Below, piece after piece: positions 3,519 to 25,190 of a DNA stretch of 64,000 bases. The stretch covers positions 124,001 to 188,000 of the forward strand of contig NZ_AP014924.1 of assembly GCF_001544015.1 (NCBI RefSeq). The letters run 5' to 3'. The position numbers and the translations under genes are program-made. The notes under the pieces were generated by a model. It saw only the letters and a program-made list of their open reading frames with translations, had not been told where the DNA came from and made no database searches. The stretch is from Limnochorda pilosa (GTDB lineage: Bacteria > Bacillota > Limnochordia > Limnochordales > Limnochordaceae). The stretch's first letter is position 1. Each line of letters begins with the position of its first letter.

Positions 3519-4597
3519 GCGGCGCGATCCCGAACGCGGGCAGCCATGGGGCTTCGGGCGCAGCGACCCTGCGTCCCAGCCCCTACGTGGAGAGGCTCCA
3601 CCAGGCGGTGGAGGCGAAGGGAGCCCCCCTGCTCCTGGGCCTCGACCCACACCTCGACCGGATTCCCGCCTGTTTCCGCTCGCGCCCCTGGCCCGCGGCG
3701 GGGCGTGGCGACGCGGGCGACCCGCGGATGGGCACGGGCACCCCGGGCGCGGGTCGCTCCCGCCCCGATTCGCAGGAGACGCGGGCCCGGCGGGCCGTGG
3801 CCCGCACCTACCTTCGCTGGGCCGAGGCGATCCTGCCCGCGGCGGCCCCCTATGTGGCCGGCGTCAAGATCCAGGCGGCCTTCTACGAGGAGGCCGGCTG
3901 GGCAGGGGCCTGGGCCCTGGAGCGGACCGCCGCGCTGGCCCGGGAGCTGGGGCTCCTGGTGGTGCTGGACGTGAAGCGGGGCGACGTGCCCTCCACCGCC
4001 GCGGCCTACGCTCGGGCCTGGCTCGACGGACCCCTAGGGGCCGACGCCGTCACCCTCCACCCGTGGCTGGGCTCCGACAGCCTGGAGCCCTTCCTCGAAA
4101 GGGTCCGCACCAACGGCCGCGGGCTCTACCTGCTGGTGCTCCCCTCGAACCCCGGCGCGTCCGAACTCCAGGAGCTGCCCACGGGAGCCACCGGAGAGCC
4201 CCTCTACCGGGTGCTGGCGCGCCGGGTGGCCGCGTGGGCCGACGCCACTGACGGCGACTCCCCCTGGTCGTCGGTGGGCGCCGTGGTGGGGGCGACCCGG
4301 CCCGACCGGGTGGCCGAGCTCCGCCGCCTGATGCCCCGGGTTCCCTTCCTCCTGCCGGGGGTGGGCGCTCAGGGCGGCCGGGTGGAGACCCTGGGCGCCG
4401 CCTTCAGCTCGGGAGGCCGGGGGGCGGTGGTGACGGCGTCGCGAAGTGTGCTGTTCGGAGACGGGTTGTCGCCCCCAGGCGGTACCCGGCCCGCGGTCGA
4501 GGCCGCCCGGGAGGTGGCCTCCCGGGCCAAGGAGCTGCGGGACCGGCTCGCGGCCCTGGTGATGGGGCACGACGGCGAGGAGGTCGAGCCTTCATGA
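3515..4597 (+). CDS. pyrF: Orotidine 5'-phosphate decarboxylase, type 2
   Basis: Decarboxylates OMP to UMP, the last step of UMP synthesis. The catalytic lysine/aspartate motif DVKRGDVPSTA (about 152-162) is the type 2 form of the DxKxxD signature, and LLPGVGAQGG near the C-terminus is the phosphate-binding loop. At 360 residues it is long for the family, which is usually under 300. A hydrophilic stretch at about 56-92, rich in Arg, Gly and Asp, looks like an insertion between the first strand and helix. The start ATG overlaps the pyrC stop (ATGA). Confidence 0.93.
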   Translation: MSGAIPNAGSHGASGAATLRPSPYVERLHQAVEAKGAPLLLGLDPHLDRIPACFRSRPWPAAGRGDAGDPRMGTGTPGAGRSRPDSQETRARRAVARTYLRWAEAILPAAAPYVAGVKIQAAFYEEAGWAGAWALERTAALARELGLLVVLDVKRGDVPSTAAAYARAWLDGPLGADAVTLHPWLGSDSLEPFLERVRTNGRGLYLLVLPSNPGASELQELPTGATGEPLYRVLARRVAAWADATDGDSPWSSVGAVVGATRPDRVAELRRLMPRVPFLLPGVGAQGGRVETLGAAFSSGGRGAVVTASRSVLFGDGLSPPGGTRPAVEAAREVASRAKELRDRLAALVMGHDGEEVEPS

Positions 4598-6570
4598 GCG
4601 GGAGCGTGATCCACACCTCCCCCCCCGGGGAGCGGGCCGCCGGGCCCCAGGCTCCCCGGACGGTGCACGCCCGGGTGGCCGCGCGCCGGGTGCTGGAAGG
4701 CGCCGAGGGCCTGGGCGCGCGCCCGGAGGGCACCGGGGGGCGCGTGGCCGGACCCGAGCTGGTCCTGCTGGAGCTGGAGGCACCGCGGCTGGCGCGCACA
4801 GTGCGGCCCGGTCAGCTCGTTCGCGCTCGGCTGGGCGGCGCGGCGCAACCCTTCCACGTGGCTACCCGATGGGAACGGGGCATCGGCCTGCTGGTGCGCC
4901 CCGGCTGGGGCATCTCGGCGCAGGTGGCCGCCCTGGCGCCGGGCGGGCGCCTGGAGGTGACGGGGCCGCTGGGAACCTCCTTCGAATCGGTGGGAAGACG
5001 GCCCGTGTGGCACGTCGCCGCGCCCGGTCGCCTGCACGCGCTGCTGCTGGCGGCGGCGGAACCGGGGGAAGGTGCGGGTCGGGTGATCCTCACCGAGGTG
5101 GGGCGCGACCCAGAGCCCTGGTGGCCGGAGGTCTTCGGCCGCCGGGTGCCGGGGCCCTCAGAGCCCGGCGGGGCACCGGAATGGGTCCGCCTGGACGGCC
5201 TCCCGGATCTGGACGCTCGCCTGGCCGCTCTCCCACCCGAGGACCGACCGGCGCTGCGGGCAGCGGGCCCCATGCCCTTCCTGGCCGAGGCGGCCCGAAT
5301 CGCCGCCAGGCACGGGGTGCCGTTGGAGGTGACCGTGGAGCAGCCCATGCCCTGCGGGGTCGGCATCTGCCTTGGGTGCGTGGTGCCGAGGCGGGACGGC
5401 AGGGGCGAGACGCGCTGGGCACGCGCCTGCCGCGAGGGTCCTGTCTTCGATGCAGCAGTGCTGGACTGGGAGCGGCTGGCCGCAGGCTCGCAGGCGGCGG
5501 TGCCCCCGCCCCGAGAGCGATTGGGGACGGCCCGCCGCGGGGCCGAGCCAGGCGCTTCAGAGGCGCCCCCGGAAGGGCTCCCCGACGCACCCCTCAACGT
5601 GCGGCTGGGCTCGATCAGGCTTCGGAACCCCCTGATGCCTGCTTCGGGGTGCTTCGGCTACGGCCGCGAGATGGCGGCCTTCTACCCCCTCCGCCTGCTG
5701 GGCGCGGTGGTGACCAAGGGCGTCAGCCTGGTGCCCTGGGAGGGCCGGCCCACACCCCGGGTGGCGTGGGCGGCGGGCGGGCTGCTGAACGCCATCGGGC
5801 TCCAGAACCCGGGGGTGGACCACTTCCTGGCGGAGGACCTGCCCTTCCTCGTGGCCCAGGGGGCGGCCGTGGTGGTGAACGTGGTGGGAGAGACCGTGGC
5901 CGAGTACGCCGCGGTGGCGGCCCGGCTGGAAGGTGCGGCCCGGTTCCCCGCCGCGCGCCCGCCGGGAGGGGGGGCCACCGAAGCCTCGACCGGCCGGCCC
6001 TACACCCCGGGCCACGGCGGGCTGACGGCCCTGGAGCTGAACATCTCCTGCCCCAACGTGGATGCCGGGGGGCTCCACTTCGGCCAGGACCCGGCCACGG
6101 CGGCCGCCGTGGTGCGGGCGGTGCGCGGGGCCAGCTCCCTGCCCCTGTGGGTGAAGCTCTCACCCCAGGGGCCCGTGGCGGAGGTGGCTCGGGCGGTGGT
6201 GGAGGCGGGAGCGCAGGTGCTCTCGGTGGCCAACACCCTGCCGGCCCTGGCCCTGGATCCCCGCACGGGGCGCCCGCGTCTGGCCGCCGGGCCCGGTGGG
6301 CTCTCGGGGCCTCCCCTCAAGCCCGTGGCCCTGGCGCTGGTACAGCGGCTCCACCGGGAGCTCGTGGTGCCCATCGTCGGCATCGGGGGCATCCGGAGCC
6401 TGGAGGACGTGCTCGAGTACCGGCGGGCGGGCGCCGCGGCGGTGGCCGTGGGCAGCGCCCACTTCGCCGACCCCTACGTGCTTCTCAAGCTCCGGCGCGA
6501 CCTGCGCAAGGACCCGCAGGCCTGGACGGCCATCGGGGCGAACGATGAAGCCCGGGAGGTGGGGCGATGA
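4594..6570 (+). CDS. pyrKD: Fused dihydroorotate dehydrogenase: PyrK electron-transfer domain plus PyrD catalytic domain
   Basis: A single 658-residue protein joins the two subunits that normally form the class 1B enzyme oxidising dihydroorotate to orotate. Residues about 20-290 are PyrK-like, with [2Fe-2S] cysteines at 254, 259, 262 and 279 (CGVGICLGC then C). Residues about 333-650 are PyrD, with catalytic Cys486 in ELNISCPNV, WVKLSPQG, and FMN-phosphate loops VGIGGIR and AVGSAHF. The usual FAD motif RPxS reads QPFHVA. The glycine-rich NAD loop expected near residues 138-146 is absent (VWHVAAPGRLHA), so NAD+ may not be the electron acceptor. A roughly 25-residue Gly/Pro insert sits at 451-476 of the PyrD part. 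Overlaps pyrF and pyrE by ATGA. Confidence 0.92.
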   Translation: MSGSVIHTSPPGERAAGPQAPRTVHARVAARRVLEGAEGLGARPEGTGGRVAGPELVLLELEAPRLARTVRPGQLVRARLGGAAQPFHVATRWERGIGLLVRPGWGISAQVAALAPGGRLEVTGPLGTSFESVGRRPVWHVAAPGRLHALLLAAAEPGEGAGRVILTEVGRDPEPWWPEVFGRRVPGPSEPGGAPEWVRLDGLPDLDARLAALPPEDRPALRAAGPMPFLAEAARIAARHGVPLEVTVEQPMPCGVGICLGCVVPRRDGRGETRWARACREGPVFDAAVLDWERLAAGSQAAVPPPRERLGTARRGAEPGASEAPPEGLPDAPLNVRLGSIRLRNPLMPASGCFGYGREMAAFYPLRLLGAVVTKGVSLVPWEGRPTPRVAWAAGGLLNAIGLQNPGVDHFLAEDLPFLVAQGAAVVVNVVGETVAEYAAVAARLEGAARFPAARPPGGGATEASTGRPYTPGHGGLTALELNISCPNVDAGGLHFGQDPATAAAVVRAVRGASSLPLWVKLSPQGPVAEVARAVVEAGAQVLSVANTLPALALDPRTGRPRLAAGPGGLSGPPLKPVALALVQRLHRELVVPIVGIGGIRSLEDVLEYRRAGAAAVAVGSAHFADPYVLLKLRRDLRKDPQAWTAIGANDEAREVGR

Positions 6571-7227: not shown

Positions 7228-7842
7228 TCAGGAGCGGGCTTTCAGGAACCGCTGGTTCACCTCGGGCCAGTTGACGACGTTCCACCAGGCCTGGACGTAC
7301 TCGGGCCGGCGGTTCTGGTACTTGAGGTAGTAGGCGTGCTCCCACACGTCCAGGCCCAGGATGGGCACCTGCCCCTCCATGTAGGGGGAGTCCTGGTTGG
7401 CCGTGCTTGAGACCTCGAGCCGCCCGCCCTTCAGCACCAGCCAGGCCCAGCCGCTGCCGAAGCGGCCCAGGGCGGCCTTGGCGAAGGTCTCCTTGAAGCT
7501 GTCGAAGCTGCCGAAGGCACTCGTGATGGCAGAGCCGAGCTCCCCCGAGGGCGCGCCCCCGGCGTTGGGTGCCATGATCTCCCAGAACATGCTGTGGTTG
7601 GCGTGGCCGCCGCCGTTGTTCCGCACCGCGGTGCGGATCGACTCGGGGACCTCGTTGATCCGTTGAAGGAGCTGCTCCACGCCAAGGGCACGGAGGCCGG
7701 CGTCCGCCGACTCCAGGGCCGCGTTGAGGTTGTTCACGTAGGTGCCGTGGTGCTTGTCGTGGTGGATCTGCATGGTCTGGGCGTCGATGTACGGCTCCAG
7801 GGCATCGAACCCGTACGGCAGAGGCGGAAGCTCGTGAGCCAT
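7228..7842 (-). CDS. sodA: Superoxide dismutase, Mn/Fe type
   Basis: Dismutates superoxide in the cytoplasm. At 204 residues it has all four metal ligands: His27 in [10 protein letters not shown], the His in GHANHSMFW, and the Asp and His in [11 protein letters not shown]. Mn versus Fe use cannot be settled by eye. I chose the ATG at 7842; a 35-residue upstream extension is non-homologous. The promoter candidate at 7918-7926 and a leader hairpin at 7872-7893 precede it. It diverges from the M48 protease gene. Confidence 0.95.
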
Positions 7843-8088: not shown

Positions 8089-9402
8089 ATGGAGCGCCCA
8101 TCGGCCCATCGTCCTCTGACCGCGCCCTGCGCCCTGCCCCAGCGCCCTGCCTTTGGCTCCCCGCGGGTCTGGCTGGTGGCGGCGATCCTCCTGGCGCTGC
8201 TTTTCACGGGCACCTCCCAGGCTCAGGGAAGCCTCTGGGACCAGATGGAGCGCAGCGCGGGCGAGTCGGCCTACCCAGAGCTGGTGGCCCGCTACGGCGG
8301 CGTGGCCCGCCTTCCCGAGGAGCACACCCGGTGGTTGAACGCGATCTTCGAACGGGTCGCCGCCCAGAGCAAACGGAGCGGCTCGGTCGGGTACAGCCTC
8401 ACCGTGGTCAACACCGACCTGGTGAACGCCTTCGCGCTGCCGGGAGGCTTCGTGTTCCTCACGCGGGGCCTGCTGGACCTCACCGCCTGGGATCCGGACC
8501 AGCTCGCCAACGTCATGGGGCACGAGGTGGCCCACATCGATCAGGATCACTACCGCGACCGCATCGTGCGCCAGCTGGGGATGGCCTTCTTCATCACCCT
8601 CTTCTTCCGCCAGTCGGCGGGGGTCGACGCCCGGGTCGTCCAGCAGCTGGTGAGCCTCACGGCCGACCTCATCGACCGGGGCTGGTCCCGGGAGGACGAA
8701 GCCGAGTCCGACCACGTGGGCCAGCTCTTCGCCGCGCAGGCGGGGTACGATCCCGCGGGCATGGTCGCGTTCCTGCAGAACCTGAAAGAAGAAGAAGCTC
8801 GCAACCCGGGGCCACAGGTGGCCGAGGTGCTCCGAACCCACCCCCTCACCGAGAACCGGCTCGCGGCGGCCCGCCAGAGGGCGGAAGAGCTGCGGCCCAC
8901 CTACGAGGCGACCCGCACCAGCCGGCCCGATCCGCCGGAGCGGCTGGGGGTGGACACCGAACGCGCCCTCTACCAGGATCCCTTGGGGCGCTTCCGCTTT
9001 CCCCTGCCTTCCGACTGGAAGCCGGGGCGGGTCTCGGCCAGCGAGAGCACCACGGTGGTCGGCTCCCGCGATGGGCGCGTCTTCTTCGTGCACGTGGATC
9101 CGGTGCCCCCGGGTGTGCGCGACGCCCAGGGCCTGGCGGACGCGGTGCTGGAGCGCTACCGCCGGGAGGTGCCTAGCTTCGAGCTGGAGCGGCCGCCCAC
9201 CCCGAGCCGGCTGGGTTCGGACGAGGCCGCTTACTTCGAGTACCGGTACGTTGACCAGGACGGGCGCCGGCTCCATGAAGGAAGCTTCGCCGCCCTCCAC
9301 GGGAACCGGGCGTACCTCTTCCAGTTCGCGGACTCGCCGGAGCGTTTCGCCTCCACGGTCGCGGCCTTCCACCGGGGGGCCGAGCGGTTCGCGTTCGAGT
9401 GA
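8089..9402 (+). CDS. Secreted or membrane-anchored M48 family zinc metalloprotease
   Basis: A 437-residue protein with an N-terminal hydrophobic segment (about 27-42, ending TGTSQAQ) that looks like a signal peptide or anchor. The M48 domain has the zinc motif HEVAH (about 145-149) and the third ligand in DEAESDHVGQLF. The architecture resembles BepA/LoiP-type periplasmic proteases, which act on outer-membrane protein assembly in diderms. That would fit the LptD operon nearby but is inference. The C-terminal ~140 residues are an extra domain of mixed strands and helices with no recognised family. The ATG at 8089 has GGAAGGAGG 9 bases upstream. Confidence 0.88.
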   Translation: MERPSAHRPLTAPCALPQRPAFGSPRVWLVAAILLALLFTGTSQAQGSLWDQMERSAGESAYPELVARYGGVARLPEEHTRWLNAIFERVAAQSKRSGSVGYSLTVVNTDLVNAFALPGGFVFLTRGLLDLTAWDPDQLANVMGHEVAHIDQDHYRDRIVRQLGMAFFITLFFRQSAGVDARVVQQLVSLTADLIDRGWSREDEAESDHVGQLFAAQAGYDPAGMVAFLQNLKEEEARNPGPQVAEVLRTHPLTENRLAAARQRAEELRPTYEATRTSRPDPPERLGVDTERALYQDPLGRFRFPLPSDWKPGRVSASESTTVVGSRDGRVFFVHVDPVPPGVRDAQGLADAVLERYRREVPSFELERPPTPSRLGSDEAAYFEYRYVDQDGRRLHEGSFAALHGNRAYLFQFADSPERFASTVAAFHRGAERFAFE

Positions 9403-11344: not shown

Positions 11345-11572
11345 CCCCCTTCTGTACTGCACCCCCATTCTTGCATGCGCGCCATGGGTGGTGACATGGG
11401 CAAATGACCCGTCTTGCCAGGGACAAGTGTCGCATAGGATACGAAAAGGGAGGTTTTCCGACATCGAATCCCGCGGCGCTGGGCCGACGCGACGCGCCGG
11501 CTCTTGGACGGCGCGCGGCGCGGGCAGCTCCGGGCCATGTCCAGGGGGAGGCGCGGTGCCCCGCCTCGCCGC

Positions 11573-12085
11573 CTAGAGGCGGGGCGCGGGCTCGCCCGTG
11601 AAGAAGAAGGTACCGGTGCCCTGGGAGATCAGGTCGCCCGCGGGGTCCTCCACGCGGCCCTCAGCCACGGCGGTGAAGCGGCCGGTGTGGGTGGGGTGCG
11701 CCCGTACCACCAGCTTCTCTCCCCGCCCTGGCTTCACGTAGTTGACGTTCAACTGGACCGTGACCACCTGGCGGCCGGTCCGGTCCGCAATGCTCCAGCC
11801 CATGGCGGAGTCGAGGAAGACGGCGGTGACCCCTCCGTGCAGGATCCCCAGGGGGTTGAGGAAGAAGGGCAAGAGGGGGATGCGGAGCACGTACCAGTCG
11901 CCTTCCACCGAGCGGTCGATGGGAAGGAGACGGGACAGGCTGAGCATGTCGCCGCTCGCGAGCATCCCGGCCGCCCGCTCCAGGACCTCCCTTTGGATCG
12001 CCTGCAGGTTCGATGCTGGGTTTGGTGGGCCCTCACCCCGGCCGGCGGAGGATTCCGGCGCCGGGCCCTCAAGATCGCGGCTCAT
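11573..12085 (-). CDS. PaaI-type hotdog thioesterase
   Basis: A 170-residue single-hotdog protein. LGILHGGVTAVFLDSAMGW carries the HGG motif of the PaaI/YdiI group, followed by VTVQLNVNYVKPGRGEKLV and the central strands. Such enzymes hydrolyse acyl- or aryl-CoA thioesters in the cytoplasm; the substrate is not predictable. The start overlaps the stop of the upstream glycoside-hydrolase-like gene by 17 bases, so the two are probably co-transcribed. The first ~25 residues are low-complexity, and a later start is possible. Confidence 0.8.
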   Translation of the reverse strand: MSRDLEGPAPESSAGRGEGPPNPASNLQAIQREVLERAAGMLASGDMLSLSRLLPIDRSVEGDWYVLRIPLLPFFLNPLGILHGGVTAVFLDSAMGWSIADRTGRQVVTVQLNVNYVKPGRGEKLVVRAHPTHTGRFTAVAEGRVEDPAGDLISQGTGTFFFTGEPAPRL

Positions 12086-13310
12086 CAGGCTCCTCTTTCT
12101 GTTCCGGACGCTGATGGGAGGCCGGTTGTACCGCCACGGCCGGTGTCATCAGCTCCTTGGGGGTCGCGTACCTCCCCGACGGATTCCAGAGAAGCCATCC
12201 CGATACCTGCAGCTCCTCCGCGGCCCGGATCTGCTCCCAGACCTCCAGGGGACCGTAGGGGCTCTGGAGGCTGAAGGACTGGAGCCACGGGCGGATCTTC
12301 CAAGGGTCCACCCGCCGGGCCGCCGCCGCCAGGGAGCGCTGCACCGCCTCGTAGGGTGCCCGGTCCGGGTTGGCTAGACCCATCGCGCCCGGGGGGAAGT
12401 GAGATGGGTAGACCATCAGGGAGACCACGTCCACCTGGCCGGCCAGCAGCTCGAGCTGGTGGCCGATGCCCAGGTCGCCCTCGGTGAGTGCGGCGAACCC
12501 GAAGAGGTCGGCGCTGGTGTAGGCGCCGGCCGCGGCCACGGCCCGCCGGGCCTCGGCCAGGAAGGCCGCGATCGTCTCGCTCTTGGACACGCCGGCGGGG
12601 TAGACGAGCCGGTCCAGGTCGCCGTCGGTGGGGAAGCGGACGTAGTCCCATTGGATCTCGTCGACGCCCGCCAGGGCCGCCTCCACCGCCAGGCCGATCA
12701 GGTACGACCAGCTCTCCCGCCGGGAGGGGTCCGCCCATCCGATGCCGTGCCGGTCGAGCCAGGCGGTGCCGTCGGGCTGGTGCAGCGCCAGGTCGGACCG
12801 GCGCGTGGCCAGCCGGTGGTCGCGAAAGGCCACCATACGCCCTACCACGTAGATCCCCCGCTCGTGGAGCTGCGCCACCAGGGCTCGCAGGTCGCGGATG
12901 TCGCCCCGAACCGCGCCCATCTGCCGGGCCCACGGGTTCTCGGCCCGGAAGGTCACGTTGCCCAGCTCGTCCTTCAGCTCGATGACGATGGCGTTCAGGC
13001 TGCTCTGGGAAAGCAGGGCCAGGACCCGAGGCATCTGGGAGCTGGCGGCCAGGGCGCCGGTCACGTAGAGCCCGCGCACCTCCTGGGGGGGATACGGCAG
13101 GTGCAGCCGGTCCGAGGCCAGCGCCTCGGGCGGCGGCTCGCTGCTGGGGGCGGGGGCCTCGGAGCGGGCCGGCGATACCAGGAGAGAGGCGAGCAGGACC
13201 GCCGCCAGCGTCGTGAGGCGGCGGGCACGGATGGCTCGCGCGCCGCCGCCGAGGTCAGCCTCGCCGCCGGACCTCGACGGTCGTGCCCCGCATCGTGGAA
13301 GACGCGCCAT
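12069..13310 (-). CDS. Secreted putative glycoside hydrolase (DUF4015/COG1306)
   Basis: 413 residues with a basic N-terminus and hydrophobic segment (about 30-50, LTTLAAVLLASLLV) consistent with export. The rest matches the COG1306/DUF4015 TIM-barrel family: GLYVTG, NAIVIELKDELG, and the signature EIQWDYVRFPTDG with putative catalytic acid residues. The polysaccharide substrate is unknown; cell-envelope glycans are a reasonable guess. The start is uncertain, since no strong ribosome site precedes 13310. It diverges from lptD. Confidence 0.78.
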   Translation of the reverse strand: MARLPRCGARPSRSGGEADLGGGARAIRARRLTTLAAVLLASLLVSPARSEAPAPSSEPPPEALASDRLHLPYPPQEVRGLYVTGALAASSQMPRVLALLSQSSLNAIVIELKDELGNVTFRAENPWARQMGAVRGDIRDLRALVAQLHERGIYVVGRMVAFRDHRLATRRSDLALHQPDGTAWLDRHGIGWADPSRRESWSYLIGLAVEAALAGVDEIQWDYVRFPTDGDLDRLVYPAGVSKSETIAAFLAEARRAVAAAGAYTSADLFGFAALTEGDLGIGHQLELLAGQVDVVSLMVYPSHFPPGAMGLANPDRAPYEAVQRSLAAAARRVDPWKIRPWLQSFSLQSPYGPLEVWEQIRAAEELQVSGWLLWNPSGRYATPKELMTPAVAVQPASHQRPEQKEEPDEPRS

Positions 13311-13550
13311 CCGCCGTCACCCTGTCTTGGTCCCTCTCCCCAGGATATGGATTCGGCATGAGACGGTGCCTCCTGGAGGGAGGGGATTCCTTTGCTCTTG
13401 AGGCCGGGCGTGGAGGTGGCCTCTGCGGCTCCGTCGAAGCCTCTCCACATCGTACGGGCTCGAGGGCAGGGTGATACCGGCCACGCCCGCCCGTCCCCGG
13501 GCCTGCGCCCCGGGGACGGGGCGCCGTGCCGTTGCAGGGGAGGGATCGCC

Positions 13551-24115: not shown

Positions 24116-24484
24116 ATGAAGGCCCGCGGCGACGGTGCAGCGCCTGAGCCGGAGGGCGAGGAGGTGACTCGGTTGCCCCGAACGAGGGAGACCGCCCTGC
24201 CGGGCCTGAAGGTGGACGTGCAGGAGGGGCCCGATGAGGAACGGCTCGCCCCCCTGCTGGCGCGGATGCGGCGGATCGAGGGGCAGGCGCGCGGCATCCA
24301 GCGGATGCTCCAGGAAGGCCGCCCGTGCCACGAGGTGGTGATGCAACTCGCGGCCATGCGCGCGGCCCTGTCGAAGGTCGGGATGGCGCTGATCGCCGAC
24401 AATCTGGAGCGGTGCGTCTCCCAGGGGGATGACCCCCGTGCCACGCTGGACCAGGCGCGCGATCTGCTCATGAAGTTCAGTTGA
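24116..24484 (+). CDS. CsoR/CstR-family repressor with Cys-Asn-Cys sensing site
   Basis: A 122-residue DUF156 all-helical repressor: MRRIEGQARGIQRML, then EGRPCHEVVMQLAAM and IADNLERCV. Copper-sensing CsoR uses Cys-His-Cys; here the His position is Asn, as in the persulfide/polysulfide-sensing CstR branch. It therefore probably senses sulfur species or redox state rather than copper; this is inference from three positions. It probably represses its own operon, whose next gene starts 13 bases later. The N-terminal ~40 residues are extra; GTG at 24164 (GGAGGG upstream) would give a length closer to the family's. Confidence 0.82.
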   Translation: MKARGDGAAPEPEGEEVTRLPRTRETALPGLKVDVQEGPDEERLAPLLARMRRIEGQARGIQRMLQEGRPCHEVVMQLAAMRAALSKVGMALIADNLERCVSQGDDPRATLDQARDLLMKFS

Positions 24485-24497
24485 AGGGGGAAGCCTG

Positions 24498-25190
24498 TTG
24501 GCCCTGTTGCAGGAACGGGACCGTCAGTACGTCCAGACCTTCTTCAAGGAGCGCTTGGAGCGGCCGGTGAAGATGCTGGCCTTCGGCCAGCGCCCCACGA
24601 AGCTGGAAGTGCCCGGCGTCCGCCGGAACCCGCTCATGGAGCAGACCCTCGAGCTGGTGGAAGAGGTGGGGCAGCTCTCCGACCTCCTGGAGACGACCGT
24701 GGCCTACGCCGGCGAGAACGAAGATCTCTTCGACCAGTGGAACGTCCCCAAGGACCGGCTCCCGGCCCTTGTCCTGCTGCCCGAGGACGGCGTCGACCGG
24801 GGCGTCTGGTTCTTCGGCGCGCCGGCCGGGTACGAGTTCCGCACCCTCATGGAGGATCTGGCCGACCTCTCCAGCGGCGCCACCTCGCTCAGCCAGGAGA
24901 GCCGCAGCAAACTCCAGGCCCTGGCCGATCCCGTCTACATCCAGGTCTTCGTTACACCGACCTGACCGTACTGTCCCCAGGCGGTCCGCCTGGCACATCA
25001 GTTCGCGATGGAGAGCGAGAAGGTCCGGTCGGTGATGATCGAGGCGAGCGAGTTCCCGGAGCTCTCGCGGCGCTACGGCGTCTACGGCGTGCCCAAGACC
25101 ATCATCAACGAGACCGAAGAGGTGGAGGGGGCCGTCCCGGAGTCCGTCTTCCTCGAGGCGGTGCTTCGGGCCACGAACGGCAAGGCGTGA
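24498..25190 (+). CDS. Predicted selenoprotein: PDO-type thiol-disulfide oxidoreductase with Sec-Pro-Tyr-Cys site
   Basis: One frame encodes a 230-residue protein like the two-thioredoxin-fold protein disulfide oxidoreductases, broken only by TGA at codon 156. Reading through gives VFVTPT-Sec-PYCPQAVRLAHQF, so Sec replaces the first Cys of the CPYC redox motif. The frame continues with YGVYGVPKTIINET, the cis-Pro loop of the family, and stops at 25188-25190. The N-terminal thioredoxin domain (1-125) has no Cys. A hairpin 11 bases after the UGA fits a bacterial SECIS. TTG start with GAAGGGGGAA upstream. Co-transcribed with the CstR-like regulator. The alternative is a point mutation in an ordinary Cys codon. 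Confidence 0.8.
24963..24993 (+). promoter_or_regulatory. Sec UGA codon and SECIS-like hairpin
   Basis: UGA at 24963-24965 is followed by 11 bases and then a perfect 7-bp hairpin, CCAGGCG (24977-24983), loop GUC, CGCCUGG (24987-24993). The 17-base hairpin at 11 bases from the UGA has the same dimensions as the SelB-binding upper stem-loop of E. coli fdhF, whose loop also carries GU. The hairpin lies inside the coding region, as bacterial SECIS elements do. Confidence 0.72.

Follow-up and report, generated by a model that had tools for sequence, protein, structure and literature searches.

Analysis of a 64-kb window of the Limnochorda pilosa chromosome (C1:124001–188000; the genome is one contig of 3,817,036 bases, 99.95% complete) revealed a gene for a thioredoxin/glutaredoxin-fold protein disulfide oxidoreductase (PDO) in which an in-frame UGA is, with a probability of about 0.96, read as selenocysteine (Sec) at the C-terminal active site. 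The reading frame, the active-site column, the SECIS hairpin, the Sec machinery of the genome and the selection past the UGA were each established by computation, and are described below with the alternatives on which they bear. The features in the window are as follows.

24498–25190, + strand: predicted Sec-containing PDO (TIGR02187) gene; 231 codons, 230 residues, Sec156, TTG start; profile match
24963–24965, + strand: in-frame UGA, predicted Sec codon 156, opening the UPYC active site; homologue column
24977–24993, + strand: upper stem-loop of a bacterial SECIS, CCAGGCGGTCCGCCTGG / CCAGGCGGUCCGCCUGG; RNA fold, SECIS model and homologues
24970–25002, + strand: putative wider SECIS stem-loop; fold and inference
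24116–24484, + strand: CsoR/RcnR-type metal-sensitive repressor; PF02583, 80.8 bits

Reading frame and family of the PDO gene

The TTG start is preceded by a GGGGG ribosome-binding–like stretch, and the TGA at 24963–24965 is the sole internal stop of the frame, the terminal TGA being codon 231; no further lesion was present. With the UGA read as Sec, the product scored 231.6 bits against TIGR02187 (cut-off 185) over model positions 2–208 of 209, and residues 148–223 matched PF13192. The sequence-only reading had placed the UGA, at codon 156, on the first Cys of a CPYC motif, and frame translation and alignment confirmed this position; residues 156–159 form a UPYC motif of the UxxC type at the C-terminal active site, and the segments VRLAHQF and YGVYGVPKT, reported beyond the UGA, both align with the family.

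The nearest solved structures were the archaeal PDOs 1a8l and 1j08 (phmmer, residues 2–225, E 4e-40 and 4e-38), which share with the window PDO two thioredoxin-fold units. The archaeal proteins are Cys proteins, whereas the window PDO has the Sec codon at its C-terminal site and an N-terminal unit without CxxC: RNPL occupies that column, and the protein is thus not of the two-site, archaeal type. Several homologues, UGA forms such as L101 included, have CPYC at the N-terminal column. The NCBI model TIGR02187 has no requirement for an N-terminal CxxC and was passed without one. Because this motif has been lost, the Sec site is predicted to be the only thioredoxin-type site, and the window PDO to be a one-site PDO.

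Hairpin downstream of the UGA

The perfect 17-nt hairpin reported to begin 11 nt after the UGA was found at 24977–24993, where it can be drawn as a 7-bp stem with a GUC loop or as 6 bp with GGUCC. Folding of the RNA past the UGA showed that it fits the published constraints for bacterial SECIS elements (loop of 3–9 nt, stem of 4–16 bp, G within the first two loop positions, 16–37 nt from UGA to loop, and MFE of at most −7.5 kcal/mol; PMC13188914): the stem has 7 bp, the GUC loop lies 18 nt from the UGA, and the energy is −11.2 kcal/mol. The hairpin was present in the 76-nt MFE structure (RNAfold; only z = −1.56 versus shuffles), and its apical GGUCC recurs unchanged in both selD SECIS candidates of the genome. 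Below the upper stem, ACUG (24970–24973) can pair with CAGU (24999–25002); Cys homologues use these codons too, so this wider stem is not specific to the Sec form. A scan of the 64-kb window against Rfam at the gathering threshold yielded no RNA family.

Analysis of chance occurrence revealed that a SECIS-model hairpin at least as stable follows the TGA trinucleotides of the window in 5.2% of cases and random positions in 6.2%, and that synonymous recoding of this peptide yields one in 3.2%. The hairpin by itself is therefore weak evidence, being matched by 3–6% of controls and unremarkable in G+C-rich DNA. It had been argued that chance would not be expected to place a stop on the active-site Cys, keep the family frame beyond it and supply a hairpin; these three jointly, and above all the comparison with homologues, do exclude chance, but the improbability of the hairpin was overstated.

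The same rate would suit a pseudogene, in which a recent nonsense mutation (TGC/TGT to TGA) disabled a redundant PDO copy that happens to carry a coincidental hairpin. A paralogue is indeed present at C1:2549121–2549765 (52% identity), with CPYC and, unlike the window gene, a TGC codon and a broken hairpin (4 bp, −6.0 kcal/mol); the UGA gene could thus in principle be dispensable, which counts against the Sec reading. A pseudogene is nevertheless highly improbable, since the frame carries no other lesion, selection persists beyond the UGA, the genome holds the full Sec machinery, and 19 UGA homologues in other genomes, most of them with the hairpin, have a stop in the same column.

Comparison with homologues

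The active-site column was compared across 49 sequences from Bacillota relatives and other genomes, window gene included. TGA occupied the column in 20 sequences and a Cys codon (TGC or TGT) in the other 29, so that every non-UGA homologue has Cys where the sequence-only reading had expected it. A SECIS-model hairpin (−7.5 kcal/mol or better) accompanied 17/20 TGA forms versus 1/29 Cys forms (Fisher p = 3e-9, to be taken as a contrast and not as a probability, the sequences being related). Three UGA homologues missed the ungapped SECIS model, although in two of them, G080b and G080c, a bulged hairpin folds in the corresponding position. The Bacillota genome G080 has three PDO paralogues (L067, L068 and L069); UGA fills the active-site column in all of them, and two have these bulged hairpins.

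The stem register of the window gene is common to 15 TGA forms. Two of its stem pairs vary (the first as A-U, G-U or G-C, the adjacent one as G-C, G-U or U-A) yet remain paired in 15/15, and all six pairs are formed in 12/15. A single fixed register for all UGA forms was ruled out by the shifted stems of L101/L103 and G119/G157/G191; since one register misfits some UGA forms, the SECIS model was used in place of fixed columns. In the Bacillota survey, tRNA-Sec was found in 15/15 genomes with a UGA-PDO versus 10/15 of the Cys-only genomes checked.

These data also bear on the alternative of an ordinary Cys gene misread in sequencing. TGA is one base from TGC and TGT, and the same-genus orthologue has TGT; however, the genome is a single contig of high completeness, TGA stands in the same column of 19 other sequences from independent assemblies, which makes a local error unlikely, and the SECIS-like hairpin is almost confined to UGA forms. 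An error of this kind is barely credible. We give as little credence to a UGA read through with another residue (Cys or Trp) or serving a regulated, truncated product of 155 residues. One report puts UGA recoding in E. coli at 30–40%, the rest terminating (PMC4513850), and a certain amount of truncated product should therefore arise in any case; but every homologue has its catalytic nucleophile at this position, the full Sec machinery is present, and the 155-residue product would be without the whole C-terminal redox domain (PF13192, 148–223).

Selection and the same-genus orthologue

The predicted Sec form was compared with its orthologue in a second Limnochorda genome (G001).

G001:C43:96383–97039; L062 (G001:C43:92383–101039) 3977–4672, − strand: same-genus PDO orthologue; 73% identity

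FolE, a metal-sensitive repressor and adenylate kinase are neighbours of both genes. Relative to this orthologue, dN/dS was 0.30 upstream of the UGA and about 0.25 downstream (dN 0.155, dS 0.631); the part after the UGA is therefore under purifying selection as protein, although the orthologue is a Cys gene and the constraint was partly exerted on that branch.

The G001 orthologue differs from the window gene in having TGT (Cys) in place of TGA, and selA, selB, selC and selD, four genes in separate places, were not found in that genome (86% complete). Its 17-nt hairpin matches that of the window gene in every letter, and this orthologue is the single Cys form among the 29 with a strong hairpin. 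With pS of about 0.43 downstream, the chance of six unchanged stem third positions was estimated at roughly 3%. The hairpin of G001 is probably a fossil SECIS, left undecayed when a Sec gene turned to Cys at the loss of the trait. In the tree, the Limnochorda pair is nested in a clade of its own order that is otherwise all Cys (99/96 support), and the Sec and Cys states require 6–7 changes over the tree. Sec may have arisen anew in the lineage of Limnochorda, or may have been kept there while others lost it.

Upstream repressor

The repressor gene ends 13 bases ahead of the PDO start, has the same neighbour in the same-genus genome, and is probably co-transcribed with the PDO gene. This adjacency hints at regulation of the PDO by metal or sulfur stress. 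Copper-sensing CsoR proteins have a metal-binding His where the window repressor has Asn (in ADNLERC); because of this replacement, the inducer may not be copper.

Sec machinery and a second Sec cluster

The absence of selB, selC and selD had been named as evidence that would speak against a selenoprotein. The genome search revealed all components: a single selA (562 bits), two selB above the cut-off, two tRNA-Sec (selC) with UCA anticodon and two selD. An in-frame TGA (MSSKAGUASK) is present in each selD gene as well, together with a hairpin whose GGUCC loop resembles that of the PDO gene. Part of this machinery lies in a separate cluster.

C1:368797–379000: second Sec cluster, with selD2 (UGA), three UGSC-family genes, a UshA-like gene, tRNA-Sec2 and selB2
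L028 (C1:362001–380000): TGA of selD2 at 7693; in-frame TGA of the UGSC genes at 9294, 13923 and 15828
L028 (C1:362001–380000): tRNA-Sec2 at 11376–11474; selB2 at 11498–13462

The product of selB2 is 40% identical to that of selB1, tRNA-Sec2 lacks one base where acceptor and D-stem meet, compared with the Rfam model, and the apical loop of two UGSC genes differs from the GGUCC of SelD and PDO. A tentative and rather unlikely scenario has two partly separate Sec-insertion systems drawing on one SelA. SelB1 would act on the GGUCC-loop SECIS elements of SelD and PDO, and SelB2, whose gene adjoins that of a diverged tRNA-Sec, would handle the UGSC proteins of the cluster; in the same scenario the PDO of this lineage would have changed from Cys to Sec and that of the congener would then have reverted to Cys, with the fossil SECIS left behind. 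Two gene sets in one genome have a precedent in Photobacterium profundum 3TCK, which has two complete operons (PMC5330540). Pairs of tRNA-Sec candidates that exceed the Rfam cut-off were also seen in the Bacillota genomes G020, G164, G191, G292 and G388; the candidate at G388:C1:1007566 is a tRNA-Cys according to ARAGORN.

Proposed mechanism

SelB would bind the SECIS hairpin just 3' of the UGA at 24963–24965 and bring Sec-tRNA-Sec, made by SelA with the selenophosphate of SelD, so that the codon is decoded as Sec and the product carries UPYC at its C-terminal active site. By analogy with the biochemistry of characterised archaeal PDOs (PMC7278568), from which we infer mechanism and activity, the Sec selenolate would attack a disulfide of the substrate, or else a persulfide or an oxidised Cys, Cys159 would resolve the intermediate through a selenenylsulfide, and a thioredoxin-reductase–like partner would reduce the latter. 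Sec insertion itself, the redox role and the reducing partner are predictions.

Relation to known selenoproteins

TIGR02187, named PDO_seleno_TRX by NCBI, is listed in a 2026 review as a UxxC selenoprotein family with high-confidence prediction (example ABB15282.1), under the name 'homolog of AhpF N-terminal domain (Grx-like domain protein)' (PMC13188914), and a glutaredoxin-like TGA cluster that includes Carboxydothermus hydrogenoformans CHY_0740 was described before (PMC1914089). A literature search for selenocysteine under 'protein disulfide oxidoreductase' returned nothing relevant, the family being listed by the older name, and selenium is absent from the Limnochordia paper PMC11456536. 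The window PDO shares with the family its model score, the UxxC column and a SECIS hairpin directly downstream, but its Sec form is nested in a Cys clade of its own order and its N-terminal CxxC has been lost. It adds a sound new example to a recorded selenoprotein family and is no new kind of system; more unusual are the nesting of the Sec form within Cys orthologues, the probable fossil SECIS, and the second cluster of selD, UGSC genes, selC and selB.

A standard gene call would cut the PDO at 155 residues, with the loss of the catalytic domain, while the correct reading gives the genome one more well-supported selenoprotein. The species pair represents a tidy Sec/Cys exchange and provides a test of the rate at which a SECIS decays after loss of the Sec trait.
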